Virus record (IMG/VR): IMGVR_UViG_3300022745_001002
Span: 1-47,469 of that record
Origin: a virus
Direction: 5' to 3' (one strand)
DNA length: 47,469 bases
Position numbers and translations under genes: made by a program. The number at the start of each line of letters is the position of its first letter. Within the stretch, counting starts at the first letter, position 1. The notes beneath the pieces are model-generated. The model searched no databases. It saw only the letters and a program-made list of their open reading frames with translations, and was not told where the DNA came from. Shown here piece by piece: positions 1 through 47,295 of the stretch.

Positions 1-426
1 ATGTCGTTCCAATGGACGCCCGGTTGGTTGCCGTGCTGTCCGCGCTTAAATCCGCTCAGGATGAAGCGCGGGCAAAAGCTACTCCAAGATGCTGGCACAG
101 TGCGGCCAATAAGCGACCGGGTGTTCTTGTACGAGGGGGACGGTATCAAGTCGATCAAGACATCATTCGCGACGGCCTGTGAGCGGGCAGGGATCGAGGA
201 CTTCCGCATCCATGATATGCGCCATACCTTTGCGAGCCACCTTGTCCAGAACGGCGTCCAGTTGCTAGCGGTGAAGGAACTGCTAGGGCATAAAACATTG
301 GCGATGGTCATGCGCTATGCCCATCTCGCGCCGGACAATCTGCGCAGTGCCATCGAGAAGCTGCCTGGACATAATCTGGGTCTAGTGCAGTCGGCCTCTA
401 AAAGGGATGCCGTTACAATCAGTTGA
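1..426 (+). pseudogene. Tyrosine recombinase, C-terminal part, frameshifted
   Basis: The C-terminal part of a phage-type integrase. Seen: frame 1 carries the catalytic-domain signature HDMRHTFASHLV (His and Arg of box II), LLGHK and MRYAHLAP with the nucleophilic Tyr. The first ~25 codons of a matching recombinase (VVPMDARLVAVLSALKSAQ) are instead in frame 3, beginning at base 3, so the reading frame shifts somewhere between about bases 75 and 120. The ATG at base 1 is therefore probably not a real start, and the gene's 5' part lies left of the window. Its last ~37 codons resemble a second remnant at 4010-4120. Most likely a decayed integrase of an older element at the same tRNA site. A sequencing error could also explain the shift. 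Confidence 0.8.
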
Positions 427-450: not shown

Positions 451-466
451 CGGATTTATAAATCCG
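451..466. repeat. Perfect 16-bp palindrome at the methyltransferase 3' end
   Basis: CGGATTTA is followed directly by its reverse complement TAAATCCG, overlapping the methyltransferase stop codon. It could form a cruciform or be a protein-binding dyad. No function can be assigned. Confidence 0.5.
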
Positions 467-1616
467 GTGCTGATTTTTTATCAGATTTTTTTTTGATTTT
501 CCTTACTGGGGAGAGCCCTTTTCCAGACAGAAGGTGCTCAAGGATTGTTTGGGCCAGCTTTGGGGGGACAGCATTTCCAATTTGCGTAAATTTTGACTGT
601 ATTGACCCTGCGGGTTCAAAACCAATCGGGAAAGTTTGAATTCGTGCACACTCCCTCCACGACAGGCGTCGAGGGATATCCAGTTTAGGGCGTGCTGGGT
701 CGATAAGGAGATGCTCATGCTGTCCTGAGAAATCCCAACGCTGCTTCCAGCCATCTTGAAGGTTGGAAGAGGTCATCGTCATGGTTGGTGATGCAGGATG
801 CAGCGTGACGTGCCGCCAATTGGCAACGACTGTATATGATGGGGCGTCCCAGGCCGCTTTGCGGTTTCTGGACATGTAGTACCAGGAGAACGTATCATCC
901 ATGCCGCCAGGGCGCTGATAGAACTCACCCTCTGGCCACAACGGAAGGTCTGCAAGAACATCGCCATGTGAACAGGGCGGCAGTAGTCCCCCGTTTTTGC
1001 CGTGAGTTGGCTGTGGGAAAGAGAATTCTTTCGCCAAGTCTTTTCTTACCCCAACGATGAATAGCCTGCGGCGGCGTTGGGGTACGCCGAAATCAGAAGC
1101 ATCAAGGATCGCCCATGAAATGCGATAGCCGTGTTGACCGGCGCGGCTGAACTCTCGTATCTGGCGGGAGAAGAATTCGCCCTCCGCAAGCGCTTTGAGG
1201 CCAGCCACATTTTCCGCAACAAAGTAAAGCGGCTCCACTAATTCAAGGCACCGAGCAAACTGCAAATATAGTTCTGATCTGGTGTCCGTTTCTGGAGACC
1301 TTCTCCCCCCCATCGAAAACGATTGGCATGGATAGCCACCAAATAACAGGTCAGCCTTGGGGAAAGTCTTAACGTTTTCGACCCGATCATGCACGATGTC
1401 AGCATTGGGAAGATAGCTGCGAAGGCTTGCAGCAGCGTCGGCCATTGCATCAATGGCGTAGACAACTTTTACCTTGGCTGCGGCAGCACCCAAGTCAAAT
1501 CCCCCACATCCGGAAAACAGCGAGATGGCGGTCCATTTTTCGCTATCATTTATTGCTTCAGCCGTACTGGCGGATGCGATCCATTCGTGGGCAAGGTCAG
1601 GTTTTACGTCAAACAT
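456..1616 (-). CDS. C5-cytosine DNA methyltransferase
   Basis: Transfers a methyl group from S-adenosylmethionine to C5 of cytosine in a specific DNA sequence. Seen in order: motif I FSGCGGFDLG near residue 34, motif IV GGYPCQSFS near 97 with the catalytic Cys, motif VI ENV near 135, motif VIII QRRRRLFIVG near 181, a short variable target-recognition region, motif IX RRLSWRECARIQTFP near 320 and motif X QIGNAVPP near 345. All key motifs are present, so it is probably active; 386 aa is normal for the family. It is the last gene of a three-gene minus-strand operon, 27 bp after the nuclease-like gene. In this setting it probably protects host DNA from the upstream partner. Recognition sequence unknown. 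Confidence 0.95.
   Translation of the reverse strand: MFDVKPDLAHEWIASASTAEAINDSEKWTAISLFSGCGGFDLGAAAAKVKVVYAIDAMADAAASLRSYLPNADIVHDRVENVKTFPKADLLFGGYPCQSFSMGGRRSPETDTRSELYLQFARCLELVEPLYFVAENVAGLKALAEGEFFSRQIREFSRAGQHGYRISWAILDASDFGVPQRRRRLFIVGVRKDLAKEFSFPQPTHGKNGGLLPPCSHGDVLADLPLWPEGEFYQRPGGMDDTFSWYYMSRNRKAAWDAPSYTVVANWRHVTLHPASPTMTMTSSNLQDGWKQRWDFSGQHEHLLIDPARPKLDIPRRLSWRECARIQTFPIGFEPAGSIQSKFTQIGNAVPPKLAQTILEHLLSGKGLSPVRKIKKKSDKKSAPDL
470..494 (+). terminator. Possible intrinsic terminator after the integrase remnant
   Basis: Stem CTGAT (470-474) pairs with ATCAG (480-484) around a T5 loop and is followed by a run of nine T (486-494). The stem is short and the site lies inside the 3' end of the opposing methyltransferase gene, so it is a weak candidate for ending rightward transcription from the recombinase. 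Confidence 0.35.
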
Positions 1617-1643
1617 GCTGTTCCCGGTACGATGCTCATGTCC

Positions 1644-2714
1644 TTACACTAACGCAGTATGTTGCGAATGGCCAGTAGGATGCTCGGCCACAATGTCTGA
1701 TGCTTCCACGGCCTTGGTGACAAGGTCCCAAACCTTAGTCGACATCAAGGCGCTTGCCGGGGTCGCCGTCCGTTCGACCAACTTGTTCAGGCGCTTCAGA
1801 ATACGCTGCCTGTCAACCCAAACGGCATGACCACTTCGGACAACACCTCGCTCAAACTTATTTCCGTACTGACGCGGAGATGCTGCCAAAAACAGAAAGT
1901 TCATATTGGGAACGGGCATGCCAAGCAAGGGGGCCCATTTCTGAGGTGAGGCATCATTCTGTTTTGGCCCCCAATTTTCATTCGATGTCGCACACTGCCC
2001 GAGAACAATAATTTCTTCAGCGGTCTCTGGCTCACCAAAGGGCACCACGGCAAACAAGTCAGCCCCTTCGTCGGCGGTATCATTGGGCCAGAATTGCGCG
2101 TCGTTAATCTCGGCACCCGTTCGAGCCAACGCGACCATTCCGCGTAACTTATCTGGTTTCCTGGACGACGCGGACGGAATGCCAATGGGGCTATTGGCGT
2201 GGGTTGTGCCAGCTAAACGTACATCACTTTCTGTTGGGAGCAATGCCTTGAGAGCATGCCACGATATGACCTCAAAGCCAGTAGTCAGGGCATGCTGTTG
2301 TCCAGGGAGATACTTATGATTGGCTGACAGCAGAAGGGCTACATAAAGCTTGTTGCCTTCGGAAAGTGGGGTTTTGAGCGAGAGGCGTCGCGCGGATTTA
2401 TCGACCTCAAAGGGGTAGAGATTGCCAAACTGGCGTTGCCGATCTTCGGCATGCTGAAAGCCATCGTCAATCAGCCGCTCAAATTTATCGGCTCTCCGGG
2501 GGCGTGCATCTGCCCCATTCGCGAGGTCCAAGTCGGCGTCGTCGAAAAGCTCGGTATCTTCACCAGATACATCTTGCCCAAGATAGCCAGAACGCAAAGT
2601 TTGAGCCGTTGCGACCTTGTCCAGCGTACTCAAACACACGATTTCGATGAAGTCTGCCCAGAGGTACGGCCATGGTCGCTCAGGGCTATCGTCCAAATTG
2701 GCGATTTGATCCAT
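1644..2714 (-). CDS. Putative restriction endonuclease-like protein of the cassette
   Basis: I do not recognise a named family. Seen: 356 aa, an acidic stretch near residues 50-65, and a central segment reading GADLFAVVPF (near 220), a short loop, then IIVLGQCATS (near 240). This spacing of an Asp, a beta strand and Q-x-A resembles the degenerate core of PD-(D/E)xK nucleases, where Q-C-K or E-x-K is usual. That reading is inference. Its start codon shares one base with the stop of the ParB-like gene (TAATG), so the two are translationally coupled, and the methyltransferase follows 27 bp later. Position beside a complete C5 methyltransferase makes a restriction or DNA-sensing role the best guess. 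Confidence 0.6.
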   Translation of the reverse strand: MDQIANLDDSPERPWPYLWADFIEIVCLSTLDKVATAQTLRSGYLGQDVSGEDTELFDDADLDLANGADARPRRADKFERLIDDGFQHAEDRQRQFGNLYPFEVDKSARRLSLKTPLSEGNKLYVALLLSANHKYLPGQQHALTTGFEVISWHALKALLPTESDVRLAGTTHANSPIGIPSASSRKPDKLRGMVALARTGAEINDAQFWPNDTADEGADLFAVVPFGEPETAEEIIVLGQCATSNENWGPKQNDASPQKWAPLLGMPVPNMNFLFLAASPRQYGNKFERGVVRSGHAVWVDRQRILKRLNKLVERTATPASALMSTKVWDLVTKAVEASDIVAEHPTGHSQHTALV

Positions 2715-3829
2715 TAGATCACCCCAAGCTCCTGATCTGAGCCTCTCTTGTCTTTCACAATCGAATGCAGGGCGACGACCATCTGGTTCATTTCCTTGAG
2801 CATTTCGATGTCGGCATCATTGGTTTTTTGAACCCTGTGAACAACATCCCGTGCTCGCTGCATTGCGCCGATTGCCGTACTAAGGGCATCTCTGAAGTTT
2901 TCCTCAGGCAGGCTTGTCCAATTTTCGGCTTCCTCTAGGGGGAGCCCGTCTGTAAATTTTTGGAGGGCCTCTTCGTGGGAAACGACGGCAGCGAGGGTTT
3001 TTAGATTTCGGCTTTCACCAAGCCGCGTCCGGCCCTCTTTGTGCTCTTCGAAAAGCCAGCTAATCAGGTTTTTTAGCCGCTCCTCATCCAGGTTTTTAGC
3101 TGTTTCATCGGTTGCATTTTCTAGGCCAAGAAAACTGCAAATGGACGAGTAGGATAGGGCTGTGGTCAGTAGCGAGAAGTTTAACCTCTCCTCATCCAGG
3201 CCCTTGATCCCGAAGAACCGTTTCTCAGCGACGAGGTCCACAAGATGGAGGCCAGTCAGGAGCTTGGCCACATAATCTGCTCGGCTGCCAATTTCGCGGG
3301 CCAACTGCTTGTATTGTTCCCACTGCTCCCCAGGCATGGGGTACAGATCACGAAGCTGGCGAAGATAGCGCGCTTTCTGAAGGGCATCCCAAGGGTGAAC
3401 GCCTGTAACGTGCCTATAGCCAAGATATTTGAGGATGTCTTTTCGGGCGGCAAACTGAATGCACGGCAGTTCAATTGGCTTGAAAGTGGCCGTGTCGGCG
3501 GCTTCTCGAACAGCTTTGGGCGGCTTGGTCATCAAGCCCGTATTGTTGAGTAACTTGGTAGCTGCCAAACGGCAGTTACCTTCTACAACAATGAATTTAC
3601 CGGCAGGAGCCCCATCAGTCGTCACAAGCAGTGGCTCGCCTGGAAAATATCCTTGCCCACCGATGGAGAGCATCAGTTCTCCGACGTCAGCATTTTCATA
3701 GAGCCATTCAATGATGCTCGGATCACCTGCTCCTTTGCGATCTGCTGGGAGGCGAGGGTTCTCTGGATCGAGCGCGAGGCTGTCGACGGCGATGGATCGA
3801 ACTTTTTTGGCGTCAATGGCGTCCGGCAT
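2714..3829 (-). CDS. ParB/Srx-fold N-terminal domain protein of the cassette
   Basis: Seen: residues 15-28 (VDSLALDPENPRLP), then a GELMLSIGGQGYFPGEPLLV segment and VVEGNCRLAATKLL near residue 85. This is the order of the ParB N-terminal fold, with GNCRLAA in the place of the G-E-R-R box that binds CTP in chromosomal ParB. The rest (about 250 aa) is helical and unfamiliar. It is the first gene of the operon; SD-like AGGGG lies 9 bases before ATG. It is not a partition protein by context, because no parA adjoins and the next genes are nuclease-like and methyltransferase. It may act as a DNA-binding switch or regulatory subunit of a modification system. Base composition of this operon looks lower in GC than the prophage. 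Confidence 0.75.
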   Translation of the reverse strand: MPDAIDAKKVRSIAVDSLALDPENPRLPADRKGAGDPSIIEWLYENADVGELMLSIGGQGYFPGEPLLVTTDGAPAGKFIVVEGNCRLAATKLLNNTGLMTKPPKAVREAADTATFKPIELPCIQFAARKDILKYLGYRHVTGVHPWDALQKARYLRQLRDLYPMPGEQWEQYKQLAREIGSRADYVAKLLTGLHLVDLVAEKRFFGIKGLDEERLNFSLLTTALSYSSICSFLGLENATDETAKNLDEERLKNLISWLFEEHKEGRTRLGESRNLKTLAAVVSHEEALQKFTDGLPLEEAENWTSLPEENFRDALSTAIGAMQRARDVVHRVQKTNDADIEMLKEMNQMVVALHSIVKDKRGSDQELGVI

Positions 3830-3857
3830 CGGACTATCCCCTTTTTATGATGCACAC

Positions 3858-3886
3858 ATGTTTGACATGAGGTGGATAGAGGTCAA
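3858..3886 (-). promoter_or_regulatory. Possible promoter of the ParB-like/nuclease/methyltransferase operon
   Basis: On the minus strand TTGACC (3881-3886) is followed after 17 bases by AAACAT (3858-3863), about 30 bases before the ParB-like ATG. The -10 box is poor. A CATGT...ACATG dyad overlaps it and could be an operator. Confidence 0.3.
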
Positions 3887-4009
3887 GTCCGCAGAAACAG
3901 CATTCTTAAATTGATCACCCAAAATGAGAGATGCGTAGTCAGTTCGAACAGGCACTCGTATGATGCTGGTCCGCTGTGGGCCTGCGGGGAACTTCACTTT
4001 AAGGGCGTT

Positions 4010-4120
4010 TATGCTCACCTAGTGCCCGTCAACCTGCGCAGTGCCATTGATAAGCTGCCCGGACATAGTTTGGGCATAGTGCAGTCGGCGTCCAAAACGG
4101 ACGCCGTTGCAACAGTCTGA
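4010..4120 (+). pseudogene. Second tyrosine-recombinase 3' tail remnant
   Basis: Codons reading YAHLVPVNLRSAIDKLPGHS to the stop at 4118-4120 match the last 37 codons of the recombinase remnant at 316-426 (YAHLAPDNLRSAIEKLPGHN), with many third-position differences. Only the part from the catalytic Tyr onwards is kept; nothing upstream reads as recombinase. It ends 15 bases before the CCA end of the tRNA half. This is what remains of another integrase whose 3' end abutted the tRNA attachment site. Bases 3830-4009 hold only the operon promoter region and no gene I can support. Confidence 0.8.
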
Positions 4121-4135
4121 TTTTTCATAAGAAAA

Positions 4136-4180
4136 TGGTGCCGGCTACAGGGATCGAACCCGTGACCCCCTGATTACAAA
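4136..4180 (-). tRNA. 3' half of tRNA-Thr(TGT), probable attL
   Basis: Read on the minus strand, this gives anticodon loop TTTGTAA (4174-4180), 3' anticodon strand TCAGG, variable loop, a 5-bp T stem with loop TTCGATC (4147-4163), acceptor strand AGCCGGC (4140-4146), discriminator A and encoded CCA (4136-4138). Beyond the loop the sequence no longer pairs as a tRNA, so the 5' half is missing. A tRNA cut at the anticodon loop is the classic product of integration by a tyrosine recombinase. The intact copy should lie beyond the right edge of the window, past the integrase. Confidence 0.8.
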
Positions 4181-4186
4181 TTGGCA

Positions 4187-4204
4187 TGAAATCCTTTGAT
4201 TTCA
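4187..4204. repeat. 7-bp inverted repeat next to the tRNA half
   Basis: TGAAATC (4187-4193), loop CTTT, GATTTCA (4198-4204). It lies just inside the prophage beside the presumed attachment core, without a T run. It could be a recombinase or accessory-protein site, or chance. Confidence 0.3.
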
Positions 4205-4272
4205 GGGGAGCGTCAGAGTTTCTAGGGCTAATTTTTGCCAGCATTTTGACCAAAGTCTGACAGCTTTTAGCA

Positions 4273-4830
4273 TCAGGGGTCAGACTTGTCAGCAGGCAGC
4301 TGGGCACCGGCCACCGTCTTGGCCCATTGACTCAATTCCTGAGAGAGTTGGGCGCCTTGGTCGGACTGCTGGGCGGTTCCTGCAAGAAGGCCTGCACCTT
4401 CAGCAAGTAGGGCTTCACATCGGCCGAGGCGGTCGCCGACGGCGGCGGGTTTTGCAGCGCCGGCGGCAGGGTGGGAGGAGCCGGGCAGGGCGTGCTGACC
4501 ACCATCCCCACTTCGGGACTGCTGCAGGCGCTTAATGTCAGAAGCAAGGCTGCGGTTATCATCGGCCGCAGCGGCCAAGGCTTGTTGGGTTTTCGCATGT
4601 TGATCCTCGATCGCCAGGTTGAGGGTGTCGCGGGTTTCCTGTAGCAGGGCCACTTTGTTGTTGGCCTTGGTCAAGGTCTTCTCGGCCTCGGCCTTCTGGT
4701 CCGCCAGTTGCCGCTTCAGGTCTTGATAGTCGCTATGTTCCCAAGCGAACATGCCCCAGCCGGCGATGGCCATCAGGGCGATAGCGCCGGCGAGAACCAG
4801 CTTCCATTCACGCAGAAGGACCAGAAGCAT
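4273..4830 (-). CDS. Rz: Rz-like inner-membrane spanin
   Basis: Host lysis in Gram-negative bacteria ends when an inner-membrane spanin contacts an outer-membrane lipoprotein and the two membranes fuse. Seen: 185 aa, one N-terminal transmembrane segment (about residues 10-29), then a long charged coiled-coil region rich in Ala, Gln and Lys. The tail is less ordered and Gly/Ala-rich. An Rz1-like lipoprotein gene lies entirely inside it in another frame. Its start overlaps the end of the putative holin gene. It is the last gene of the late operon. Assignment rests on topology, nesting and the lysis context rather than on a strict motif. Confidence 0.8.
   Translation of the reverse strand: MLLVLLREWKLVLAGAIALMAIAGWGMFAWEHSDYQDLKRQLADQKAEAEKTLTKANNKVALLQETRDTLNLAIEDQHAKTQQALAAAADDNRSLASDIKRLQQSRSGDGGQHALPGSSHPAAGAAKPAAVGDRLGRCEALLAEGAGLLAGTAQQSDQGAQLSQELSQWAKTVAGAQLPADKSDP
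4332..4598 (-). CDS. Rz1: Rz1-like outer-membrane spanin lipoprotein, nested in Rz
   Basis: Encoded wholly within the Rz gene in a different frame. Seen: a basic start, hydrophobic stretch ITAALLLTLSAC with lipobox L-S-A-C (Cys at residue 25), and a mature part rich in proline (PCPAPPTLPPALQNPPP). Lipobox plus proline-rich periplasmic region plus nesting inside an i-spanin is diagnostic of the lambda Rz/Rz1 arrangement. The lipoprotein would sit in the inner leaflet of the outer membrane and bind the Rz C-terminus. Confidence 0.85.
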   Translation of the reverse strand: MRKPNKPWPLRPMITAALLLTLSACSSPEVGMVVSTPCPAPPTLPPALQNPPPSATASADVKPYLLKVQAFLQEPPSSPTKAPNSLRN

Positions 4831-4996
4831 GGCCGCCCCCCTTCAGCAGGACGCCGACGACGCCGCAGCCAATCACCAGTTCGCGCCAGGGCGACGGCAG
4901 CAGATATCCGCCGGTGACGATGCCGGCGATCGACGGCCAGGTCGAGGCATCCGTCAGGGCCGGACCGATTCGGGTATGGAAGAGATCGCGGATCAT
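4808..4996 (-). CDS. Putative holin, small membrane protein
   Basis: 62 aa with two short hydrophobic stretches (about residues 20-34 and 40-51) separated by a turn with a charged pair, the size and shape of a small holin. A near-perfect ribosome site AAGGAGG stands 6 bases before the ATG, consistent with strong late expression. It lies between the putative endolysin and Rz. Holins control the timing of membrane opening at lysis. No family motif is recognised, so the call rests on size, topology and context. Confidence 0.65.
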   Translation of the reverse strand: MIRDLFHTRIGPALTDASTWPSIAGIVTGGYLLPSPWRELVIGCGVVGVLLKGGGHASGPSA

Positions 4997-4997
4997 C

Positions 4998-5423
4998 TTA
5001 TTCCTCCTTCGGGGGGAAGGCCGAGGCGACGCCAGTCTTGATGGTTTCCGGGCTGTAAGGCTGAATCCCGTTTTCGTGATAGATGATGGCTGTCACGATA
5101 GCCTCCAGGATGTCGTCATGCTCGATCAAGATGGTATCGGCCACGTCAACATTCAGGGCCGCCGCCACAGCCCGAGCATAGGCATCGGTATCGTTCTCGG
5201 TGGGGGGAGCCCATCTGCCGATCAGCGTGTTGACCGTGTAAAGGCCGTATTTTCGGCCATAGGTCAGCAGGATCCGGGCGATCGCGCGAATACCGTCCTG
5301 GGCGTTATCAAACGTTACGAAGATCTCATCTTCGCCTGGGATTTCGCCCTGCCATTGGGTCCGGCTGAGACGGATATTTCCGGGGTTGTTGTTCCGGATT
5401 CCTCGGGGGAGCAGGAGCGTCAT
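4998..5423 (-). CDS. Phage lysin of the 'RNNNPGNIR' family (putative endolysin)
   Basis: 141 aa beginning with GIRNNNPGNIR, followed by a WQG segment, TFDNAQDGIRAIARILLTYG, and WAPPTENDTDAYARAVA. This set of motifs is shared by phage proteins annotated as virion-associated or endolysin-like murein-degrading enzymes with a lysozyme-like fold. I see no signal peptide, so export would need the neighbouring holin. Its start overlaps the previous gene's stop (ATGA). Endolysin is the best role, because no other lysin lies in the lysis cassette; the gp15-like protein has a separate transglycosylase used at entry. Confidence 0.65.
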   Translation of the reverse strand: MTLLLPRGIRNNNPGNIRLSRTQWQGEIPGEDEIFVTFDNAQDGIRAIARILLTYGRKYGLYTVNTLIGRWAPPTENDTDAYARAVAAALNVDVADTILIEHDDILEAIVTAIIYHENGIQPYSPETIKTGVASAFPPKEE

Positions 5424-5749
5424 GCGACCACCTTTTCAATCATGGCCATGACGCCCGAGCCCAAGCCGGAAAGCCACCCGTCAACGCGGGCCAGCTGATC
5501 TTGCGCCTGATCGAACTCGTCCTGGGCAGCCTTGGCCATGCTCTCGATCGCAGTGCGGCCTTCGCTGATAAGGGCGCGGATATTGGTTTCCAGTTCCTGT
5601 CCGGCCGCCTTCACCTCTTGCAGCGCCGCATCCAAAGCGGCATGCCCCTGCATTTCAGAGGCTGCCTTCAGCGCGGCCAAATGAGCCGCCCGGGCAGTAG
5701 ACAGCTCTTGCAGGACTTCGGCATGGGTTCGTTGATTGGGATCGCTCAT
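5420..5749 (-). CDS. Hypothetical helical phage protein
   Basis: 109 aa, no recognised family. The sequence is Ala/Glu/Gln-rich with heptad-like spacing across about residues 8-90, so it probably forms a coiled coil. It lies between a membrane protein and the endolysin and is translationally coupled to the latter. It may be a structural or lysis accessory protein. Confidence 0.6.
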   Translation of the reverse strand: MSDPNQRTHAEVLQELSTARAAHLAALKAASEMQGHAALDAALQEVKAAGQELETNIRALISEGRTAIESMAKAAQDEFDQAQDQLARVDGWLSGLGSGVMAMIEKVVA

Positions 5750-5785
5750 GGGTCTCGCCTCTAAAGTCAGGGGGGGATGGTCTGG

Positions 5786-6085
5786 TCAGGATGCCTTGGG
5801 GCGTAAGGCGTCCAGCTTGTCTTCGATCCGCTCGAGCCGCCCATCCAGCCGCTCTTCCAGTTTGCGAAGATCATTGTCTTCGACGAAACGGCGTTCGCTA
5901 TCGACACGGTGGTGTTCGAGCTTGTTCTGAATCTCGTGGATCGATTTCCACATATCGTCGTGATGGGACTTATCGGCGTCTTGATGCTTGTCCATCCGCG
6001 ACCACAGCAGCAGAAAAGCGCCGCCCAACAAGGGCAGCATGACCACGGTTATGACGCTCCAGACAGAGATCGATTCGCTGCTCAT
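5786..6085 (-). CDS. Small membrane-anchored coiled-coil protein
   Basis: About 99 aa. One transmembrane segment near the N terminus (WSVITVVMLPLLGGAFLLLW), then a charged region with DKHQDADKSHHDDMWKSI and a C-terminal heptad stretch LRKLEERLDGRLERIEDKLD. The layout resembles small phage membrane proteins that accompany holins (XhlA-like), but the order of TM and coil is reversed. I chose the ATG at 6085; a GTG at 6094 is possible and would overlap the stop of the preceding gene. Function unknown. Confidence 0.6.
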   Translation of the reverse strand: MSSESISVWSVITVVMLPLLGGAFLLLWSRMDKHQDADKSHHDDMWKSIHEIQNKLEHHRVDSERRFVEDNDLRKLEERLDGRLERIEDKLDALRPKAS

Positions 6086-6379: not shown

Positions 6380-8722
6380 TCAAAATCCCCGATCGACAAA
6401 AAGGCGGATCTGCCAGTTGGCGGGTGTCAGGGCAACCGTTGCTGAGGCACTGGTCAGGCCCACCAAGAAATAAGAGGAGCCGGGGCGCAGCATCATGGTC
6501 CGACTGGTCAATCGCTGTAGTTCGCAGGATTGGTTGCTGGCGATCGTCGCCCCCATCAGGACATCGATCACATCACCCATCGCATAGACCTGCTCGGCAG
6601 CAATGCAGATTGCCTGCAGTCGTGCCGACACGGTTTTGATCCCGACATTATGAGTGTATGAGGTCGGGGTCGCCAAAGCCGGCGCCGTCACCCAACCGCT
6701 ATCCCAACGCCCCACAAGCGCATAGCTCACCACGCTGCTGATGGCAGAAGCCCCGGCAATCGCCTCGCCGACATAGAGTTTGCTGCTGGTGGTAAAGGTC
6801 GGATTGCTGCCTGCCGCCGTCGAAGCCGCACTAGGCGACTTCATCGCCATGTTGGTGGTATCGAACCAGTCCGAGGCATAGCCCGCCGTCGCCACCGAGG
6901 CCAGAGCGGTGGGAACGCTATAGCTGGTGCCGGCGGGATGCTGGCAATAGGGCAGGATCTCTAAGCCCTGAGCCCACGCTGTCGAGCCGCCCCCCAGATA
7001 CCCGCCCGAGATCGGGCCGCCATAACCCAAACTCACCGTCGAAATGGCGCCGATTTTCAGGGCGCTGGTGGCCACTGTGTAACCGGTTCCGTTGACATAG
7101 AGATAATATTTGCCGGCGATGGGATCATAGGTCAGCTCGACAAAATAGGCCGTGTTGGCGGCATAGGGAGCCACCGAAACCGCATTGGCGATATCGCGGG
7201 TGCTGCCGGTCGATGACAGGTCCACCAGGATATTGCCACCGTTGCTGAGATAGACCACGGCGCCATAGCCACTGGCGTTGACCGCCGACATCACAGCCTG
7301 GGCGGCGTTATTGACAGGCGTCTTGAACCAGGTCCGCATCGACCATCCGCCATTGCCCAAAGGGGCAAGGCTGGGGAAGGCCGCAGACGACATCTTGGAC
7401 GAGCTGCCGTTGAAGACGCCCATATAAGAGCCACTCAGCATCGGGCTGCTGCTGGTGAAGGTGACGCTCGTATTGGTCCAGCTGTTGCCGAAATCATCCA
7501 GGCTGGAATTGTTCAAGGTCAGGCTGGCCTGCGCCGCCTGATTATAGGCTGGACCATATTGCACCGGGGCCAGGGTCGCGCCCCAGGTGACGGCGGTGGC
7601 GCTGCTATAAACGGCATAAAGATAGGATAGCAGATTGGCCGAGCAGGCCGCCGTGTTGCCACCGATAGCCAGCTTGGCGACAAGATCCACCGCGCCGATC
7701 TGTCCAAAGCCATTGGCAAAGGCCAGGATCAGCGGATTGGTGGCCGTGAAAGCAGGGGTCAGTCCCGCGCCGACGGTCAGGAAGGCCGCCGCGCCGCTAC
7801 TGTTGGCGTCCCCCGACAGCACGGTTTGGCGAACAGGAATTTCCGGGCAGGAGATAAAGCTGGGATCAAGGGTGCCGTCGCTTCTGGCTTTGGGAACCGC
7901 ATTGGCGGTGGCCGTGGTGGCGAGGGAAGGACCGCTGGCGACAACCTTCCCTGATCCATTGGCGAAGATGGCAAGGGCGCCATTGGTCGCGGTGCCGGCA
8001 TTGGTGACGACGTTCGCGGCCGGAACACCGCTATCACTGCCTTGGCCGCCGGACGTGTCCGAAAAGGAGACAAGATTTCCCGAGGCGGCCATTCCCGGGC
8101 CAGAGAAGTTGCCCGGCGAAACACCGGTCCAACTCACGCCGTTCCATAGCGGCACCTTGCCGGTGCCGATTGCAACCCCAAAAGGCAGCGAGGCGGCGGC
8201 GGCTTGAGCGGTCGCGGCGCTTGTACTGGCGCTTGTCGCTGCCGCCGCGGCCGTGGCCGCAGCAGCTTGCGCTGTGTTTTGTGCGGTCTGGCAATTTGCC
8301 AGATAGGCGTCGGGGCTGGCGCCGACCGCCACTTTGACGCTGCGGTCGATCTGGGCCTGGAGCTGCTGGATGCATTTGGCCTGATAATCGAGCGCGGTTT
8401 CCACCAGCGCGGGATTGAAGTTATTGACTGAAAATCCGTACTTTTGCTGCAAGACCAGAATGCGGTTCGCCGTCGCCCATTTGTTGGCGATCAGCGGCTG
8501 GCTGGTGCTGGGGTCGGTGATGACCAGCGATGGTGTCGCGCCCGGGTTCAGCAGTTGATATTGCGCTGCCGTCAGTTGCGTGGTGACGGTGGGCGTTACG
8601 GTTCCGTCAACGATGAAGACTTGTAATTCGTCTTGGGACAGGACCGAAAATCCCAAGGGCAGCACCGTGCCCGATCCGTTGCCCAAAAGCGTGGCGGTTG
8701 ATGTCGTGCTGGTGACGGTCAT
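6380..8722 (-). CDS. Tail fibre/spike with lectin-like domain
   Basis: 780 aa receptor-binding structure. Seen: an N-terminal region (residues 1-140) like T7-group fibres, which attaches to the tail; an Ala/Thr/Ser-rich helical linker around 150-190; repeated GxxS/T-rich beta segments to about 400; a concanavalin/LamG-like module about 405-610 with WSMRTWFKTPV, YFVELTYD and YYLYVNGTGY; and a beta-rich C terminus. The lectin-like module probably binds surface polysaccharide. It follows the gp16-like gene and is preceded by a strong hairpin (8730-8771). No variable-repeat or template-repeat pair of a diversity-generating element was seen. Confidence 0.85.
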   Translation of the reverse strand: MTVTSTTSTATLLGNGSGTVLPLGFSVLSQDELQVFIVDGTVTPTVTTQLTAAQYQLLNPGATPSLVITDPSTSQPLIANKWATANRILVLQQKYGFSVNNFNPALVETALDYQAKCIQQLQAQIDRSVKVAVGASPDAYLANCQTAQNTAQAAAATAAAAATSASTSAATAQAAAASLPFGVAIGTGKVPLWNGVSWTGVSPGNFSGPGMAASGNLVSFSDTSGGQGSDSGVPAANVVTNAGTATNGALAIFANGSGKVVASGPSLATTATANAVPKARSDGTLDPSFISCPEIPVRQTVLSGDANSSGAAAFLTVGAGLTPAFTATNPLILAFANGFGQIGAVDLVAKLAIGGNTAACSANLLSYLYAVYSSATAVTWGATLAPVQYGPAYNQAAQASLTLNNSSLDDFGNSWTNTSVTFTSSSPMLSGSYMGVFNGSSSKMSSAAFPSLAPLGNGGWSMRTWFKTPVNNAAQAVMSAVNASGYGAVVYLSNGGNILVDLSSTGSTRDIANAVSVAPYAANTAYFVELTYDPIAGKYYLYVNGTGYTVATSALKIGAISTVSLGYGGPISGGYLGGGSTAWAQGLEILPYCQHPAGTSYSVPTALASVATAGYASDWFDTTNMAMKSPSAASTAAGSNPTFTTSSKLYVGEAIAGASAISSVVSYALVGRWDSGWVTAPALATPTSYTHNVGIKTVSARLQAICIAAEQVYAMGDVIDVLMGATIASNQSCELQRLTSRTMMLRPGSSYFLVGLTSASATVALTPANWQIRLFVDRGF

Positions 8723-40106: not shown

Positions 40107-40137
40107 ATGTTGAAGCCTCCACAACTTGGAGGCTCAC

Positions 40138-40644
40138 ATGGTCTCGGCCATTCCCAAACCTCGCCCAAGCCGTCGCCCGCTTCGCGGCCGGCTTGAAGAC
40201 GGCACCGCCAATCCCATTGATACTCATGTCGGCAACCGCATCCGCGAACGCCGCATGCTCTGCGGCTTGACCCAGAACGAACTGGGCGACCAAGTCGGCA
40301 TCGCCTTCCAGCAGGTTCAGAAATACGAGCGTGGCGCCAACCGCATTTCCGCGGGCCGGCTCTATAGCCTGGCCTGCGTCCTGGGCTGCTCTCCCAGCCA
40401 TTTCTTCGAAGGGATGGATGCCGGCGTCGCCGCCTCATCGCCTGCCAGCCTTGCTGCCGGCGCGACGGCGCAACAACCGGTTGAAAGCCTCGCCCAACGG
40501 GGCGAATCGCTGAAATTCATCCGGTCCTTGAACGCCATCTCCAATGACGTCGTGCGCAAGGCCTATACCAATCTGCTCTGCCAATTGGCTCTGACGGCCA
40601 CGATCGGCGACGCCCCCAACCAGTCTCATTTGGCAGCGGAGTGA
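40138..40644 (+). CDS. XRE regulator of the alphaproteobacterial QKYERGANR family
   Basis: 168 aa from ATG 40138 (TTGGAGG with five-base spacing; a TTG at 40126 would overlap the SD itself). Residues about 28-95 are the HTH: PIDTHVGNRIRERRMLCGLTQ, FQQVQKYERGANRISAGRLY. A linker and helical C terminus (LKFIRSLNAISNDVVRKAY) follow. Members are usual in alphaproteobacterial chromosomes and prophages. It begins the rightward operon and is controlled by the two upstream dyads. It overlaps the next HTH gene. Confidence 0.85.
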   Translation: MVSAIPKPRPSRRPLRGRLEDGTANPIDTHVGNRIRERRMLCGLTQNELGDQVGIAFQQVQKYERGANRISAGRLYSLACVLGCSPSHFFEGMDAGVAASSPASLAAGATAQQPVESLAQRGESLKFIRSLNAISNDVVRKAYTNLLCQLALTATIGDAPNQSHLAAE

Positions 40645-41096
40645 CCGTCATGACCATGATCAAAAAACCGCAAGATCCCATCGACACCCATGTCGGCTCT
40701 CGCATCCGCCTGCGCCGCCAGCTTCTGAATCTCAGCCAAGAGAGCCTGGGGCACCTGATGGGCCTGACCTTCCAGCAGGTCCAGAAGTACGAGCGCGGCG
40801 CCAATCGCGTCAGCGCCAGCCGGCTTTATGATCTGTTGATGATCCTCGATGTGCCGATCTCGTTCTTCTACGACGATCTGCCAGCGGATTTGGCGCAAGG
40901 CGGCGCCGATAGCAGCCTGATGGCCGAGCCCAAGATCTCGCCCGAGACCCAAAACCTGCTCGATGCCTATTGGTCCATTCCCGACGACAAGCTGCGCCGC
41001 CGCCTGCGCGACCTGGCGCTGCATCTGGGAAAAGCCGGAGACTTCGCCGCCGATGTCGCGGTGGCCGAAGCCGGATTCTGCCAAGCGGGAGCGTAA
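40641..41096 (+). CDS. XRE regulator, first copy of tandem duplication
   Basis: 151 aa or 148 aa if it begins at ATG 40650. HTH DPIDTHVGSRIRLRRQLLNLSQ, LGHLMGLTFQQVQKYERGAN, LYDLLMILDVPISFFYDDLP; then ETQNLLDAYWSIPDDKLRRRLRDLALHL. From IDTHVG onward it is almost identical in DNA to the second copy at 41532-41949. The protein is related to the preceding 40138 gene as well, so three HTH proteins of one family lie in a row. Confidence 0.85.
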   Translation: MTVMTMIKKPQDPIDTHVGSRIRLRRQLLNLSQESLGHLMGLTFQQVQKYERGANRVSASRLYDLLMILDVPISFFYDDLPADLAQGGADSSLMAEPKISPETQNLLDAYWSIPDDKLRRRLRDLALHLGKAGDFAADVAVAEAGFCQAGA

Positions 41097-41098
41097 TC

Positions 41099-41344
41099 AT
41101 GCTGAACGTTAAACTTTCAAGCCATCGTCAGGGCTTCTTGCTCATGGTTGCAGGGCCTATGGGCTCTGGAAAATCAACGCTGATTGCCAAGGTCGAATCA
41201 TTTGTCATCGGCCATGGCGGCATCATTTCGCAACATAACCAAGAGGTTCCTGGGATCGAAGAGATCGTCGGATCGCTGGGCAATCTCAGTCTTCTGGGCT
41301 TGCGTCATGCCGTCGACCTCCTGAACCAGGAGGCCCGGACATGA
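41099..41344 (+). CDS. Miniature P-loop protein, copy 1
   Basis: 81 aa. An N-terminal strand then AGPMGSGKSTLIAKVESFV, a complete Walker A, but the protein ends about 60 residues later (EIVGSLGNLSLLGLRHAVDLL), with no visible Walker B. It overlaps the next ORF by four bases (ATGA). Its counterpart at 41951 shares P-M-G-x-G-K-[ST]-T, E...G.I...., E-E-[IV]-[FV]-GSLG.LS and the end ART. A truncated NTPase that may bind a nucleotide without hydrolysing it. Confidence 0.75.
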   Translation: MLNVKLSSHRQGFLLMVAGPMGSGKSTLIAKVESFVIGHGGIISQHNQEVPGIEEIVGSLGNLSLLGLRHAVDLLNQEART

Positions 41345-41949
41345 TGGCCGTCCAAATCTATCTGCCGCAGGGCGGGGCCTGTGTCCTGACCTTCCCGGAT
41401 TGGGTCCGCGACATGGTGCGGGCGGGTAAGGCCGATCTCTGCTTTGCCGAGGCGCCGGCCTCCGATGTCCAAGGTGCGCTGCTGCTGGCCAAGCGCGGGC
41501 AGGGCTATTTCCTGGTGCCCACCATGCCGGCCATCGATACCCATGTCGGCTCTCGCATCCGCCTGCGCCGCCAGCTTCTGAATCTCAGCCAAGAGAGTCT
41601 GGGGCACCTGATGGGCCTGACCTTCCAGCAGGTCCAGAAGTACGAGCGCGGCGCCAATCGCGTCAGCGCCAGCCGGCTTTATGATCTGTCGGTGATCCTC
41701 GATGTGCCGATCTCGTTCTTCTACGACGATCTGCCAGCGGATTTGGCGCAAGGCGGCGCCGATAGCAGCCTGATGGCCGAGCCCAAGATCTCGCCCGAGA
41801 CCCAAAACCTGCTCGATGCCTATTGGTCCATTCCCGACGACAAGCTGCGCCGCCGCCTGAGCGACCTGGCGCTGCATCTGGGAAAAGCCGGAGACTTCGC
41901 CGCCGATGTCGCGGTGGCCGAAGCCGGATTCTGCCAAGCGGGGGCCTGA
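41341..41949 (+). CDS. Fusion of the MMAVQ ORF N-terminus to an HTH regulator (second copy)
   Basis: 202 aa. Residues 1-65 (MMAVQIYLPQGGACVLTFPD ... FLVPTMPA) are the same as the first part of the 42268 gene, and residues from IDTHVG on are the second copy of the 40641 regulator, one continuous frame across the joint near 41531. This is the junction of a tandem duplication: the 5' part of the small ORF has been joined to the HTH gene by recombination at ATCGATAC/ATCGACAC. It may be expressed as a fusion or be an inactive by-product. Confidence 0.85.
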   Translation: MMAVQIYLPQGGACVLTFPDWVRDMVRAGKADLCFAEAPASDVQGALLLAKRGQGYFLVPTMPAIDTHVGSRIRLRRQLLNLSQESLGHLMGLTFQQVQKYERGANRVSASRLYDLSVILDVPISFFYDDLPADLAQGGADSSLMAEPKISPETQNLLDAYWSIPDDKLRRRLSDLALHLGKAGDFAADVAVAEAGFCQAGA

Positions 41950-41950
41950 G

Positions 41951-42271
41951 ATGAGACCCGACATTACGATTATGCAAACGAGGGTTCTTCCGGCTGGGGC
42001 GGCTACTTTTTCCCTGGGGTTCCGCATCGTCATCAAGGGACCGATGGGGTGCGGTAAAACCACGGTAGCCGATTGGGTCAGACAGTATGTGACCCAGAAT
42101 GGAGGACGCATCTTCGAAGAGTATTCTGGGGAACGCGGATACCCTCCGAGGGAGGAAGTCTTCGGATCGTTGGGACGACTGTCTGTTCCCAGCCTTAAAG
42201 AGGCGATTGATGTTTTTGCTCGTGAGCAAGAGCAAAAATACAGCTGCGATCGAGGGGAGGCCCGGACATGA
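41951..42271 (+). CDS. Miniature P-loop protein, copy 2
   Basis: 106 aa. It has a longer N terminus than copy 1, then VIKGPMGCGKTTVADWVRQYV and REEVFGSLGRLSVPSLKEAIDVFARE. Paralogous to 41099 but strongly diverged, while the flanking HTH and MMAVQ genes of the same duplication remain nearly identical. It overlaps the next ORF by four bases. Walker A only. Confidence 0.75.
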   Translation: MRPDITIMQTRVLPAGAATFSLGFRIVIKGPMGCGKTTVADWVRQYVTQNGGRIFEEYSGERGYPPREEVFGSLGRLSVPSLKEAIDVFAREQEQKYSCDRGEART

Positions 42272-42597: not shown

Positions 42598-42835
42598 GTC
42601 TATCGTCATTCAGGTCGCCGATCTTGGCGCCGTCCGCACCATGGCCGCCCGCATCCAGTCCGAACGGATGCTGTTCGCCGAATGCCCGGACAAGGCCCTG
42701 ATCACCCGCTGGGGCTACACGCCGACCGAACTCGATCGCCTGCGCCCCGCCGCCGAAGCCATCGCCAACCGCCAGCCCTGGAGTCTCGCCTCCGAGGCGA
42801 ACCCGGTTCGCCAAGCCATCTTGCCGAGGGCCTGA
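42590..42835 (+). CDS. Small hypothetical protein upstream of parA
   Basis: 81 aa from ATG 42590, overlapping the previous stop. VIQVADLGAVRTMAARIQSE then ITRWGYTPTELDRLRPAAEA. The last ten codons include the 17-bp palindrome at 42796-42812 (reads EANPVRQ). parA starts 3 bases after its stop. Confidence 0.65.
   Translation: MSESIVIQVADLGAVRTMAARIQSERMLFAECPDKALITRWGYTPTELDRLRPAAEAIANRQPWSLASEANPVRQAILPRA
42796..42812. repeat. 17-bp palindrome GGCGAACCCGGTTCGCC before parA
   Basis: Perfect member of the palindrome family, 26 bases upstream of the parA ATG and within the end of the preceding gene. Confidence 0.7.
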
Positions 42836-42837
42836 TC

Positions 42838-43629
42838 ATGCTGACCATCGCCATCGCCAATCAGAAAGGCGGGGTGGGCAAAACCACCACCGCCGTCAAT
42901 CTGGCCTATGCCTTCTATCAGCTGGGTCAGCGCACATTAATCTGTGACATGGACCCGCAAGGGTCGGCGACGCTGCATTGCGGCTTCGACCATCGCGGGT
43001 TGACCCGCGACGGTTTGACCCTCGGCCCTGTCTTGACCGGAAGTCCGATCCGCAACGTGTTGCTGGACATGGAAAAGGATGGCTGGCTTTCCCTGGCCGC
43101 CGGCGGGGCCGGGCTGGGCGATGCCGAGCTGTATCTGTCCCGGCAGAACAAAGGCTCTGCCGCTCTGACCAAGGCGCTGCAATCCGTTGCCGACGGCTAT
43201 GATCTGGCGGTGATCGATTGTCCGCCCAATTTCAGCCTGCTGACCCTCAATGGCCTGGCCGCTGCCGACTGGCTTCTGATCCCAGTGCAGACCGAGGCCC
43301 TGGCCTTCGACGGGCTCTCGACCATGCTGTCGCATCTGCAGGCTTTCCGCGAAACCACCGAGGGATCGCAAATCCGGCTGCTGGGCATTCTGCCCACCTT
43401 GTACGACCGCAAACGGGCGCTGCACCGGGAACTGTTTCTGCAGATGTCCGAATCCTTCTCGGACCAATGCACCGTCTTCCCGCCGATATCCATGTCGGCT
43501 GTTTATCCCAATTCGGCAGCCGAAGGCTGCATCACCGGCAAATGGCGGCCAAACACCCCAGGGCTTGATGTCTTCCAGCATATCGCCCGCGACGTCCTGC
43601 GCCGCCAAAAGGGGGCGCACCATGGCTAA
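42838..43629 (+). CDS. parA: ParA-family partition ATPase
   Basis: 263 aa from ATG 42838. Deviant Walker A NQKGGVGKTTTAVNLAYAF at residues 8-26, DMDPQGSAT (A'), and VIDCPPNFSLLTLNGLAAAD with Walker B; later segments GLSTMLSHLQAFRE. No N-terminal HTH, so it is the small type Ib or chromosomal kind. It moves or positions DNA by ATP-dependent binding. parB follows with an 8-base overlap. Confidence 0.95.
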   Translation: MLTIAIANQKGGVGKTTTAVNLAYAFYQLGQRTLICDMDPQGSATLHCGFDHRGLTRDGLTLGPVLTGSPIRNVLLDMEKDGWLSLAAGGAGLGDAELYLSRQNKGSAALTKALQSVADGYDLAVIDCPPNFSLLTLNGLAAADWLLIPVQTEALAFDGLSTMLSHLQAFRETTEGSQIRLLGILPTLYDRKRALHRELFLQMSESFSDQCTVFPPISMSAVYPNSAAEGCITGKWRPNTPGLDVFQHIARDVLRRQKGAHHG

Positions 43630-44635
43630 AGCCAGTCGCCGCATGCTGGCTGGCTCTGCCGCCGCCGCCGCCGCCGCCCTCGATGGGGCCGCCGTGCCGG
43701 TTCCGGCTGTGCTGTCCATCAAGACGATCGAGGCCGCCGGGGGCGGCGCCATCGTCTTCCGTCCGCTCGACCGCCTGGGCCTTAGCCCCAAGAACGAACG
43801 CACCATCTTCGACCAAGATCAGATCAAGCTGCTGGCCCTCGATATCGAAAAAAACGGGCTGCTGCAGAATCTGGTGATCTATCCCTCCGATCTGATGGAT
43901 GACTTCGACCTGGTCGCCGGCGGCGGCCGGCGCTGGCGGGCGCTGAACTGGCTGGACGACAAAGGGCGTCTGCCAAAGGCTCTGGTCCAGCATGGCATCC
44001 CCTGCAAACGGGTGCCGACTGAAGCGGTCGCCCTGGTGGTTACAGTGGTCGAGAACATGCGCCGCGAGGACGTTCACTTCCTCGACCGCGCCAAGGCCTT
44101 CGCCCGTCTGCGGGACGAACTGGGCCTGTCCAACATCGAGATCGGCGAGCTGGTGCTGCTCAGCAACGACGCTGTCGGCCAATATCTGCGCATCCATGAC
44201 CGCCTTCCCGACGATCTGCGCGCCGCCGCCCTGCGCGGCGAGATCAACTTCAAGCAGGCCCGCATCCTGGTGGCCGAGAAAAAGGCCGTATCAGAACCGC
44301 CGCCGGAAGTGGCGCTGCCCTTGTCGCCGGTCATAGCATCGTCAGTCATAGCATCGCAGGACATTGTCCAGGCCTCGCCGAGGGCGACTCAGATATGCTC
44401 GCCGCCAGAACGGTGCGCGGTGGCTATCGATGACATCGTCATTGAAACACGCCCCGTCCTGCCAAGCCCTTCGCGCCGCATACCGGGCGAGATCGCTTGG
44501 CCGAATCAAGACTACGCCTGCCTGTTGCTGGGCCATAAGGGGGCATCCCTCACATTTATGACCATCGTCGAGCGGAAGACCGGGAAACGCCTATGGTTGG
44601 TCCCCGAGCAACGCGACATCGAGGATGGGGAGTGA
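43622..44635 (+). CDS. parB: ParB-family partition protein
   Basis: 337 aa. Ala-rich N terminus of about 25 residues, ParB/Srx domain: IDQDQIKLLALDIEKNGLLQN-type (DQDQIKLLALDI), GGGRRWRALNWL in the place of G-E-R-R, VENMRREDVHFLDRAKAFARL, then the HTH LGLSNIEIGELVLLSNDAVGQYLRIHDRLPDDL. The C-terminal quarter is unlike classical ParB and richer in A/T, with VIASSVIASQ, and ends in a small beta domain. Forms a complex on parS with ParA. Confidence 0.9.
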   Translation: MAKASRRMLAGSAAAAAAALDGAAVPVPAVLSIKTIEAAGGGAIVFRPLDRLGLSPKNERTIFDQDQIKLLALDIEKNGLLQNLVIYPSDLMDDFDLVAGGGRRWRALNWLDDKGRLPKALVQHGIPCKRVPTEAVALVVTVVENMRREDVHFLDRAKAFARLRDELGLSNIEIGELVLLSNDAVGQYLRIHDRLPDDLRAAALRGEINFKQARILVAEKKAVSEPPPEVALPLSPVIASSVIASQDIVQASPRATQICSPPERCAVAIDDIVIETRPVLPSPSRRIPGEIAWPNQDYACLLLGHKGASLTFMTIVERKTGKRLWLVPEQRDIEDGE

Positions 44636-46020: not shown

Positions 46021-47295
46021 ATGGCCACCGTGAAGATCCGTCACTTGATCGAGAAGCCCGGCAAGGATGGCCGGCGCTTCTTCTGGCAGCCGTCGTCAGA
46101 CTTGCGCAAGCTGGGCTGGCGCATGGAACGCCTGCCGGACGATCGCATGATGGCCATGGCCCGCGCCGAAGATCTCAACCGCCAGCTGGACGCCTGGCGG
46201 AAGGGCGAGACGATTCCGGTCGGCGAGAAGGGCGGCCCGAAGCAACAGCTTGAAACCCGCCAGCCCGGCACCATTGGCGCGCTGATCACCTCTTATAAGA
46301 GCGATGGCCGCTACATCAAAAAGGCCGAAAAGACCAAGCAGGGCTATAGTTGGGCATTGAACATCATCGAAGAGTGGGCCGATCAAGGGCGGGTGCCAGT
46401 GCGCGCCATCACCTCCAAGCGCATCCAGGTCTTTTATAAGGCCATGTATGCCACCACACCGGCCAAGGCCAATGCCGTCATGCGGGTGCTGCATCTGCTG
46501 TTCGAGCATGCACGCCGCGAAGATATGATCGAGATCAACCCCGCTTCCAAGGCCGGCACCATCGCCACCGCCCCGCGCATCCGCGTGCTGTCCCTGGACG
46601 AGATCGATGCGCTGCTGGCGCATGCCGACGCCCTGGGCTTGCCGTCGATCGGCGATGCCATCCTCATGGGCCAGCAGCTCGGACAGCGTCAGGGGGATAT
46701 CCTATCGCGCACCTGGCTCGGCTATCAGGACAATGCCTTCCTGATCCGCCAGAGAAAGACCGGCGCCATCGTCAAGCTGCCGGCCTCACCGCGCCTGCAA
46801 CTGCGTCTCGAGGCGGCGCGCAAGCGCCAGGCCGACAAGCTGAAGGATGAAGACGAGGGCCGTTATACCAAGTCGGGCTTTATCATCGCCCTCGATCTCA
46901 GCGGCGGGCGCTATCAGGGCAAGACCTTCAATCACCTGTTCGCCCGCGTGCGCGCCGCCGCCGCCGGGCAGCCCGAAGATCATAAGGACGCCGCCGCCAC
47001 CCGCCAGCTGGCCAAGGTGCCAAGCCTGCTGGGTCAGAAGGCCACCGAGCTGGAGCCGGAGATCCTGCCGGCTTGGTACATGGATCTGCGCGACACCTGC
47101 GTCACCATGATGGCCGACGCCGGCTGCACCGTGCCCGAGATCGCCTCGATCACCGGCCACACGCCGGACAGCGTCTATCGCGTCCTGCGCCACTACCTAG
47201 CCAACAGTGCCATCCAGGCCAGCAACGCCATTGCCAAACTGGTCACGCATGAAGATCAGCTGCGTGCGCTGCGCCAGCCTCAGAAGGAAGCGTGA
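46021..47295 (+). CDS. int: Prophage tyrosine integrase
   Basis: 424 aa. N-terminal arm-type region to about residue 85, core-binding segment TIGALITSYKSDGRYIKKAEKTKQGYSWALNIIEEW, catalytic domain with the first Arg in GQQLGQRQGDIL, RKTGAIVKLP (Lys), YMDLRDTCVTMMADAG (box II, with Asp where most integrases have His), ITGHTPDSV (GH) and LRHYLA (nucleophile Tyr). It should integrate the prophage into tRNA-Thr; the tRNA half at 4136-4180 is the far end. Gene 3' end points to the right boundary, as expected for an integrase next to attP. Confidence 0.95.
   Translation: MATVKIRHLIEKPGKDGRRFFWQPSSDLRKLGWRMERLPDDRMMAMARAEDLNRQLDAWRKGETIPVGEKGGPKQQLETRQPGTIGALITSYKSDGRYIKKAEKTKQGYSWALNIIEEWADQGRVPVRAITSKRIQVFYKAMYATTPAKANAVMRVLHLLFEHARREDMIEINPASKAGTIATAPRIRVLSLDEIDALLAHADALGLPSIGDAILMGQQLGQRQGDILSRTWLGYQDNAFLIRQRKTGAIVKLPASPRLQLRLEAARKRQADKLKDEDEGRYTKSGFIIALDLSGGRYQGKTFNHLFARVRAAAAGQPEDHKDAAATRQLAKVPSLLGQKATELEPEILPAWYMDLRDTCVTMMADAGCTVPEIASITGHTPDSVYRVLRHYLANSAIQASNAIAKLVTHEDQLRALRQPQKEA

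Follow-up and report, generated by a model that had tools for sequence, protein, structure and literature searches.

Organization of the cassette

The stretch of viral DNA analysed here comprises positions 1 to 47,469 of the IMG/VR record IMGVR_UViG_3300022745_001002 (47,469 nt; "the window" below). Near its left end lies a cassette of three genes, which encode a ParB-fold protein, a middle protein that we term MID, and a C5-cytosine DNA methyltransferase. An initial annotation, made from the sequence, proposed that this trio is an operon and possibly an undescribed defence system. The three open reading frames (ORFs) are intact and uninterrupted, and lie on one strand with exactly the coordinates given in that annotation, including the TAATG overlap of the first two genes (Table 1). 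The methyltransferase gene starts 28 nt downstream of the MID gene. Scans for promoters and terminators yielded no more candidates than scans of shuffled sequence.

Table 1. Features of the window, with the cassette genes and their motifs first
Feature	Position	Strand	Basis or remark
C5-cytosine DNA methyltransferase, predicted self-marking enzyme	456..1616	-	386 aa; PF00145, M.HaeIII alignment
Middle protein MID, predicted Mrr/MspJI-like PD-(D/E)xK nuclease	1644..2714	-	356 aa; AlphaFold2, Foldseek, profile
ParB/Srx-fold protein, first cassette gene	2714..3829	-	371 aa; AlphaFold2, Foldseek, PADLOC
TAATG, ParB stop overlapping MID start, couples both genes	2712..2716	-	sequence
Predicted catalytic core of MID, residues 215-251, DEGAD(219)...Q(240)CA...W..K(251)Q	1962..2072	-	conservation, MspJI alignment
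ParB box II, EGNCR (family: EGNRR)	3569..3583	-	Arg in 146/147 homologues, Cys in window
Target-recognition motif SRNR...R of the methyltransferase (R250, R252, R268)	813..869	-	M.HaeIII R225, R227, R243 by alignment
Integrase 3'-end copy left of cassette, direct repeat	316..418	+	103 nt, 82% identical to 4010-4112
Integrase 3'-end copy right of cassette, direct repeat	4010..4112	+	repeat comparison
tRNA-Thr-like 3' half, probable attachment-site remnant	4138..4180	-	GGGGTCACGGGTTCGATCCC occurs once in window
ParA-like gene of the phage	42682..43629		separate from cassette
ParB-like gene of the phage	43565..44635		separate from cassette
Integrase of the phage	46021..47295		

MID is a predicted restriction-type nuclease

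Searches with the single MID sequence gave no significant match in Pfam, NCBIfam or PADLOC and no relative in the PDB, and the family libraries that we tried hold no dedicated model for this nuclease; its core was recognised only through a family profile and a structure model. The AlphaFold2 model of MID (mean predicted local distance difference test score, pLDDT, 87.9) was matched best by MspJI in a Foldseek search of the PDB (E 2.9e-3, prob 1.00), followed by AspBHI, and the top two matches in the viral structure library BFVD are Mrr-domain proteins. The sole PDB match of the family profile (E 0.16) was the catalytic segment of MspJI, SGDGGVDF...LGQAK, in which D334 and Q355 align with D219 and Q240 of MID; the spacing between the two residues is 21 in both proteins. 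Three members of the MID family match PADLOC models for "methyl-directed Type II REase".

In an alignment of 95 diverse MID members (mean identity 25%) five residues do not vary (D219, Q240, K251, R302 and R304), and three more (D21, E24 and D215) hardly do. Among 147 homologues D219 and Q240 were each found in 143 and K251 in 140, the remainder being mostly gaps, and the three residues are retained regardless of the class of modification partner encoded beside the pair. The "degenerate nuclease-like core" (GADLF...GQCAT) of the initial annotation is real and conserved, but the word degenerate is misleading, as K251 is almost invariant. Position 242, which aligns with K357 of MspJI, is occupied by G, A or T throughout the family, while W248 and K251 follow shortly after Q240, the latter nine residues beyond position 242. 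From the alignments and the model we conclude that MID is probably a PD-(D/E)xK nuclease of the Mrr/MspJI type with a displaced lysine, which would cleave DNA. The model builds the N-terminal half of MID mostly from helices, and an SRA-like reader was not seen in the protein.

The ParB-fold protein is a predicted nucleotide-dependent switch

The ParB fold postulated for the first gene was borne out by the AlphaFold2 model (pLDDT 93.2), for which Foldseek returned 16 PDB matches at E <= 0.001, all of them ParB, Noc or KorB (best 1.6e-5). The N-terminal domain of the PADLOC model PD-Lambda-5_A matches residues 8-158 (5.5e-20). Apart from this link, family searches with single sequences recognised none of the three products but the methyltransferase. 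When relatives of the protein were compared with Pfam, weak matches were obtained to ParB_N (28/92) and to GmrSD_N (DUF262; 18/92), so that the family touches the partition branch of the fold as well as the mark-sensing one. The model leads us to predict a sensor or switch dependent on nucleoside triphosphates (NTPs), with a helical DNA-binding region resembling that of Noc and KorB.

The copy in the window departs from its family in box II, where codon 86 is TGC (Cys; 3572-3574) in place of the first Arg of the box; it is the sole exception among 147 homologues. In a survey of the fold (PMC12704722), nucleotide binding was lost when a conserved arginine of box II was mutated. Either of the two arginines in the EGNRR motif may correspond to that residue, so the ParB protein of the window may or may not work. 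The protein may be weakened by Cys86, or the codon may possibly be a sequencing error.

The methyltransferase and its predicted target

The third gene encodes a complete cytosine methyltransferase, as annotated initially: it matches PF00145 from end to end (9.1e-61), with the motifs FSGCGG, PCQS, ENV, QRRRR and GNAVPP, catalytic ones included, all present. It aligns over its full length with M.HaeIII (E 7.6e-41), and the arginines of its target-recognition motif coincide with R225, R227 and R243 of that enzyme, which we take to be the GGCC contacts in the HaeIII-DNA structure. From this equivalence we predict that the methyltransferase most likely marks GGCC as GGm5CC. A GGCC-type triad was found in 93 of the 115 methyltransferase genes paired with ParB-MID; the others fall into several further recognition classes.

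ParB and MID form a conserved pair

TBLASTN searches with MID revealed the neighbourhood of all three genes in coliphage Wphi (gp98-gp96-Mth) and in a Pseudomonas phage, and the ParB-MID pair on a Persicobacter plasmid and on a human faecal contig. With two alignments of such pairs (A1 and A2), scans of viral and genome contigs succeeded, whereas a search by pattern with MID alone came up empty in both sets. For the genome contigs, the best 80 of 500 candidate stretches with ParB relatives were examined. Nucleotide searches found neither the cassette in plasmids nor the body of the phage in phages. The loci analysed are the best-scoring matches to the ParB protein of the window, most of them fetched with ParB alone; distant relatives that lack MID, such as those of PD-lambda-5, are therefore under-represented.

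The MID gene comes immediately after ParB, in the same orientation, in 179 of the 182 loci; two of the exceptions stop at contig ends and the third is L154. The hosts include Pseudomonadota, Bacteroidota, Chloroflexota, Verrucomicrobiota, Actinomycetota, Bacillota and others. Over 113 loci the evolutionary distances of ParB and MID are correlated with r = 0.94, those of the methyltransferase with either protein only with 0.31-0.36, which points to the marking enzyme as the exchangeable part of the system.

Exchange of the modification partner

Among 139 classifiable distinct pairs, a C5-methyltransferase, detected with a hidden Markov model (HMM), adjoins 113, dnd genes adjoin 12, and 14 have neither. 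The dnd neighbours were identified as DndC, DndD, DndE and DptH with NCBIfam and as DndC and DndG with PADLOC, and the assignment was extended to the remaining loci by HMMs. Known Dnd systems mark GpsAAC/GpsTTC or GpsGCC (PMC7464106, PMC7470945). In a FastTree phylogeny the Dnd-linked pairs are confined to one fully supported clade of 14 rows (12 with Dnd, one in which no marker was detected and one unclassified), and the C5 recognition classes switch several times.

Several loci have further features of their own. L005, L131, L163, L169 and L178 form a clade of ParB-MID pairs without a neighbouring modification gene. The loci L133, L137, L138, L147 (Pedobacter rhizosphaerae, Dnd-linked) and L166 also match a DndH/DptH model, and in the first three the matching gene directly adjoins ParB-MID; in such loci a single phosphorothioate mark may serve two restriction effectors. 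On a single faecal contig (L006, MT835579) two divergent ParB-MID pairs point in opposite directions (3824-6017 and 6563-8663), and the second adjoins a gene that PADLOC calls "Type II helicase"; no methyltransferase was found in the DNA fetched for this locus. In Gordonia (L130, 10200-13795) a complete-looking Gabija system (GajA/GajB) adjoins the pair.

Genomic context

The trio of Wphi is found at the genome end, flanked by gpA and gpQ. The gene order in E. coli O145 RM9872 is portal, ParB, MID, methyltransferase, a small ORF, DUF3850 and replication endonuclease, so that in both genomes the trio is situated between the portal and replication-endonuclease genes. This P2 site has been described as a defence hotspot, rich in defence genes (Vassallo et al., PMC9519451). 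In the fetched DNA of 64 distinct viral loci both P2 markers were detected in 29 and at least one in 40; among 77 loci from genome contigs, a P2 marker is nearby in one.

The methyltransferase is present in 139 of 5,426 complete E. coli genomes (~2.6%), with 80% or more of its length matched in every case, and a Wphi-like ParB-MID pair accompanies it in 103 of the 139. We considered that it might be an orphan in the other 36, but in the one checked a diverged ParB-MID pair adjoins it. Among the E. coli genomes inspected, five carry natural lesions of the trio: MID carries an IS5-type insertion in three and is split into two ORFs in one (L222, L223, L225 and L226 are the loci in which MID is hit), and in the fifth genome IS2 lies just upstream of ParB. 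None of the five has a damaged methyltransferase. Such a pattern would be expected if the effector is harmful and the methyltransferase protects, although the cases are too few for a test.

The cassette in the window has a GC content of 0.53, versus ~0.61 for the phage. The initial annotation placed it at an integration hotspot, which is partly right: the cassette is flanked on both sides by a copy of an integrase 3' end, and the tRNA-Thr-like remnant adjoins it, between the right-hand copy and the lysis genes of the phage. ARAGORN detected no complete tRNA, and the phage has an integrase of its own at the opposite end (Table 1). Its place may be on the host side of an attachment site, or the cassette may be cargo that the phage acquired late. 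The statement that no parA is near holds locally, as there is none within the first 9 kb of the window, although the phage has its own parA/parB-like pair ~40 kb away; with no adjoining parA, we rejected the cassette as a ParAB partition system. Elsewhere in the window, the region 40126-42597 contains repeated repressor-like ORFs (IDTHVGSRIRLRRQLLNLSQESLG...) and a repeated N-terminus (MMAVQIYLPQGG...), and the ORF at 41341-41949 fuses the repressor-like part with the MMAVQIYLPQGG... part, as if by tandem duplication.

Comparison with known systems

The initial annotation noted that known Dcm-type restriction systems have no ParB-fold gene, to which a correction must be added: the validated system PD-lambda-5, for which broad anti-phage activity was shown (Vassallo et al. 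2022, PMC9519451), already joins a ParB-domain protein to a methyltransferase. The N-terminal domains are homologous (5.5e-20 for the window protein, 7e-26 for a Dnd-linked relative), but the match is confined to about the N-terminal 160 residues; the ParB protein of PD-lambda-5 is longer (~490-506 aa versus 371 aa) and has another C-terminal part. Its methyltransferase is Dam/D12-like (SPLRYPGGK) rather than C5, and it lacks MID; accordingly, models of MID and of the C5 enzyme found no match in seven PD-lambda-5-like loci. We thus rejected membership in PD-lambda-5 on the architecture of protein A, the type of methyltransferase and the gene content.

Another counterpart is the trio gp98-gp96-Mth of Wphi (AY135739), in which all three families recur at the cargo site of P2. 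It differs from the window in that its methyltransferase gene is convergent rather than co-directional, and the proteins are diverged (41% identity for ParB, 26% for MID). The trio is annotated in Wphi, but we found no characterisation of it in the open-access papers searched, nor a description of any system composed of ParB, a nuclease and a C5-methyltransferase; the cassette is undescribed in this sense, even though its Wphi relative has been sequenced.

DndI and SspE (PMC11662687) likewise couple a ParB-superfamily sensor to a nuclease guided by a self-mark, but they are single polypeptides with DUF262 and HNH domains, whereas here two polypeptides, a PD-(D/E)xK-type nuclease and usually a 5-methylcytosine (5mC) mark are involved. 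MID shares with MspJI/Mrr-type enzymes the segment SGDGGxD...Q with its equal spacing, and differs from them by the missing lysine of QxK, the SRA domain not seen, the obligate ParB partner and the adjoining methyltransferase. From the restriction-modification (R-M) class the cassette has intact methyltransferase motifs and an adjoining restriction-type nuclease fold. Its methyltransferase resembles those of GGCC-specific Type II R-M systems (M.HaeIII/M.BspRI) in the end-to-end alignment and the retained contact arginines; in contrast to these systems, the cassette has no restriction enzyme of the HaeIII or BspRI type, and a protein of NTPase fold is obligate.

Three further candidates were rejected. 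The DruM2-type methyltransferase model of Druantia type II fits (492 bits) but no other gene does: there is no large helicase ORF by the cassette and no PADLOC Druantia match for MID or ParB. For PADLOC PDC-M38, the ParB-like N-terminal half of the 715-residue PDC-M38A matches but its full length does not; the C-terminal half matches a protein of ~370 aa in most genomes, which we read as a J-domain protein and not as MID. Membership in Dnd was rejected since no ORF for DndC, DndD or DndE lies by the cassette in the window, in contrast to 12 related pairs. By the features tested, the trio falls outside PD-lambda-5 and DndI/SspE, its nearest validated relatives, but its working principle appears to be theirs. 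What would be new is a two-protein effector with a ParB sensor in mark-based restriction, found with two mark chemistries; the principle itself is already known.

Proposed mechanism and alternatives

The gene content, conservation, folds, catalytic-type residues, exchange of partners and defence-hotspot location observed in this analysis make it probable, in our view, that the cassette is an anti-phage system akin to R-M, in which the neighbouring enzyme sets a self-mark and ParB and MID attack DNA that does not carry it. These two, the ParB-fold protein and the MspJI/Mrr-like nuclease, would form one obligate effector, in which ParB would bind DNA and a nucleotide and license the nuclease to cleave DNA without the self-mark, and hence restrict phage. 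The C5-methyltransferase would supply the mark, most likely GGm5CC, which would block the effector and spare host and prophage DNA. The effector would not be bound to one chemistry, its partner being usually a C5-methyltransferase and, in one clade, the Dnd machinery. The defence interpretation of the initial annotation is supported in that it survives both computational tests that were run against it: the order of the trio is widespread in other genomes, and the catalytic core of MID is predicted to be that of a PD-(D/E)xK restriction nuclease. The location at the P2 hotspot and the association with dnd operons also agree with it.

We are more doubtful about a specific form of this mechanism, in which ParB-MID would be agnostic to the mark and would recognise a single short target, which in the main lineage is GGCC, that can be blocked either by 5mC on the base or by a backbone phosphorothioate, two chemically unrelated marks; the ParB NTPase would be a general proof-reading switch that turns "mark present" into release.

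Several observations weigh against the proposed mechanism. Whole-chain template modelling (TM) scores of MID versus MspJI are low (0.2-0.3), the canonical third catalytic residue is absent throughout the MID family, and a catalytic role of K251 is putative. The five lesions of the E. coli trio, falling in ~2.2 of its 3.2 kb, are too few to prove a bias. The exchange of C5 for Dnd may be a single event, as all Dnd-linked pairs belong to one clade. Finally, there are the 14 pairs without an adjoining modification gene, and the metagenome-assembled genomes of two of the loci (L163 and L169) contain no match to the methyltransferase of the window or to DndC.

The main rival, which we consider unlikely, reverses the polarity: the pair would read the mark, either being primed by the mark of the host, as in SspE, or attacking 5mC in the wrong context, as in MspJI. 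The nearest solved relatives of MID, MspJI and AspBHI, are indeed modification-dependent nucleases, the ParB/DUF262 fold senses marks in SspE and DndI, and activation of SspE requires phosphorothioate marks (PMC11662687); in DndI, on the other hand, which has that sensor fold, the mark protects. The model of MID shows no SRA-type reader like that of MspJI, and the adjoining methyltransferase would generate the effector's own targets.

We regard as quite improbable an ordinary Type II R-M system of MID and methyltransferase in which ParB does no more than regulate transcription, the role proposed for DndB. Operon repression by a ParB-fold protein is known (DndB, PMC12704722), and the Noc/KorB-like DNA-binding region predicted here would suit such a role, but it is ParB and MID that co-evolve tightly and not the methyltransferase, the pair persists without a methyltransferase, and PD-lambda-5 joins a ParB-domain protein directly to a methyltransferase without MID. 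A maintenance module of a mobile element, with a partition-like ParB and with nuclease and methyltransferase punishing loss of the element, would suit the ParB fold and the presence of the cassette on prophages and beside integrase remnants, but is very improbable given the lack of an adjoining parA in the window, the many chromosomal copies outside phages (the 77 genome-contig loci) and the association with dnd operons.

If the proposed mechanism is true, a ParB-fold switch as obligate partner of the nuclease would extend ParB/CTPase biology from chromosome segregation to the discrimination of self and non-self. The exchange of methylation for phosphorothioation beside the same effector opens a direct way to study how marks are read by effectors. 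The mechanism would also account for uncharacterised cargo of Wphi, a phage whose methyltransferase is carried by about one in forty complete E. coli genomes.

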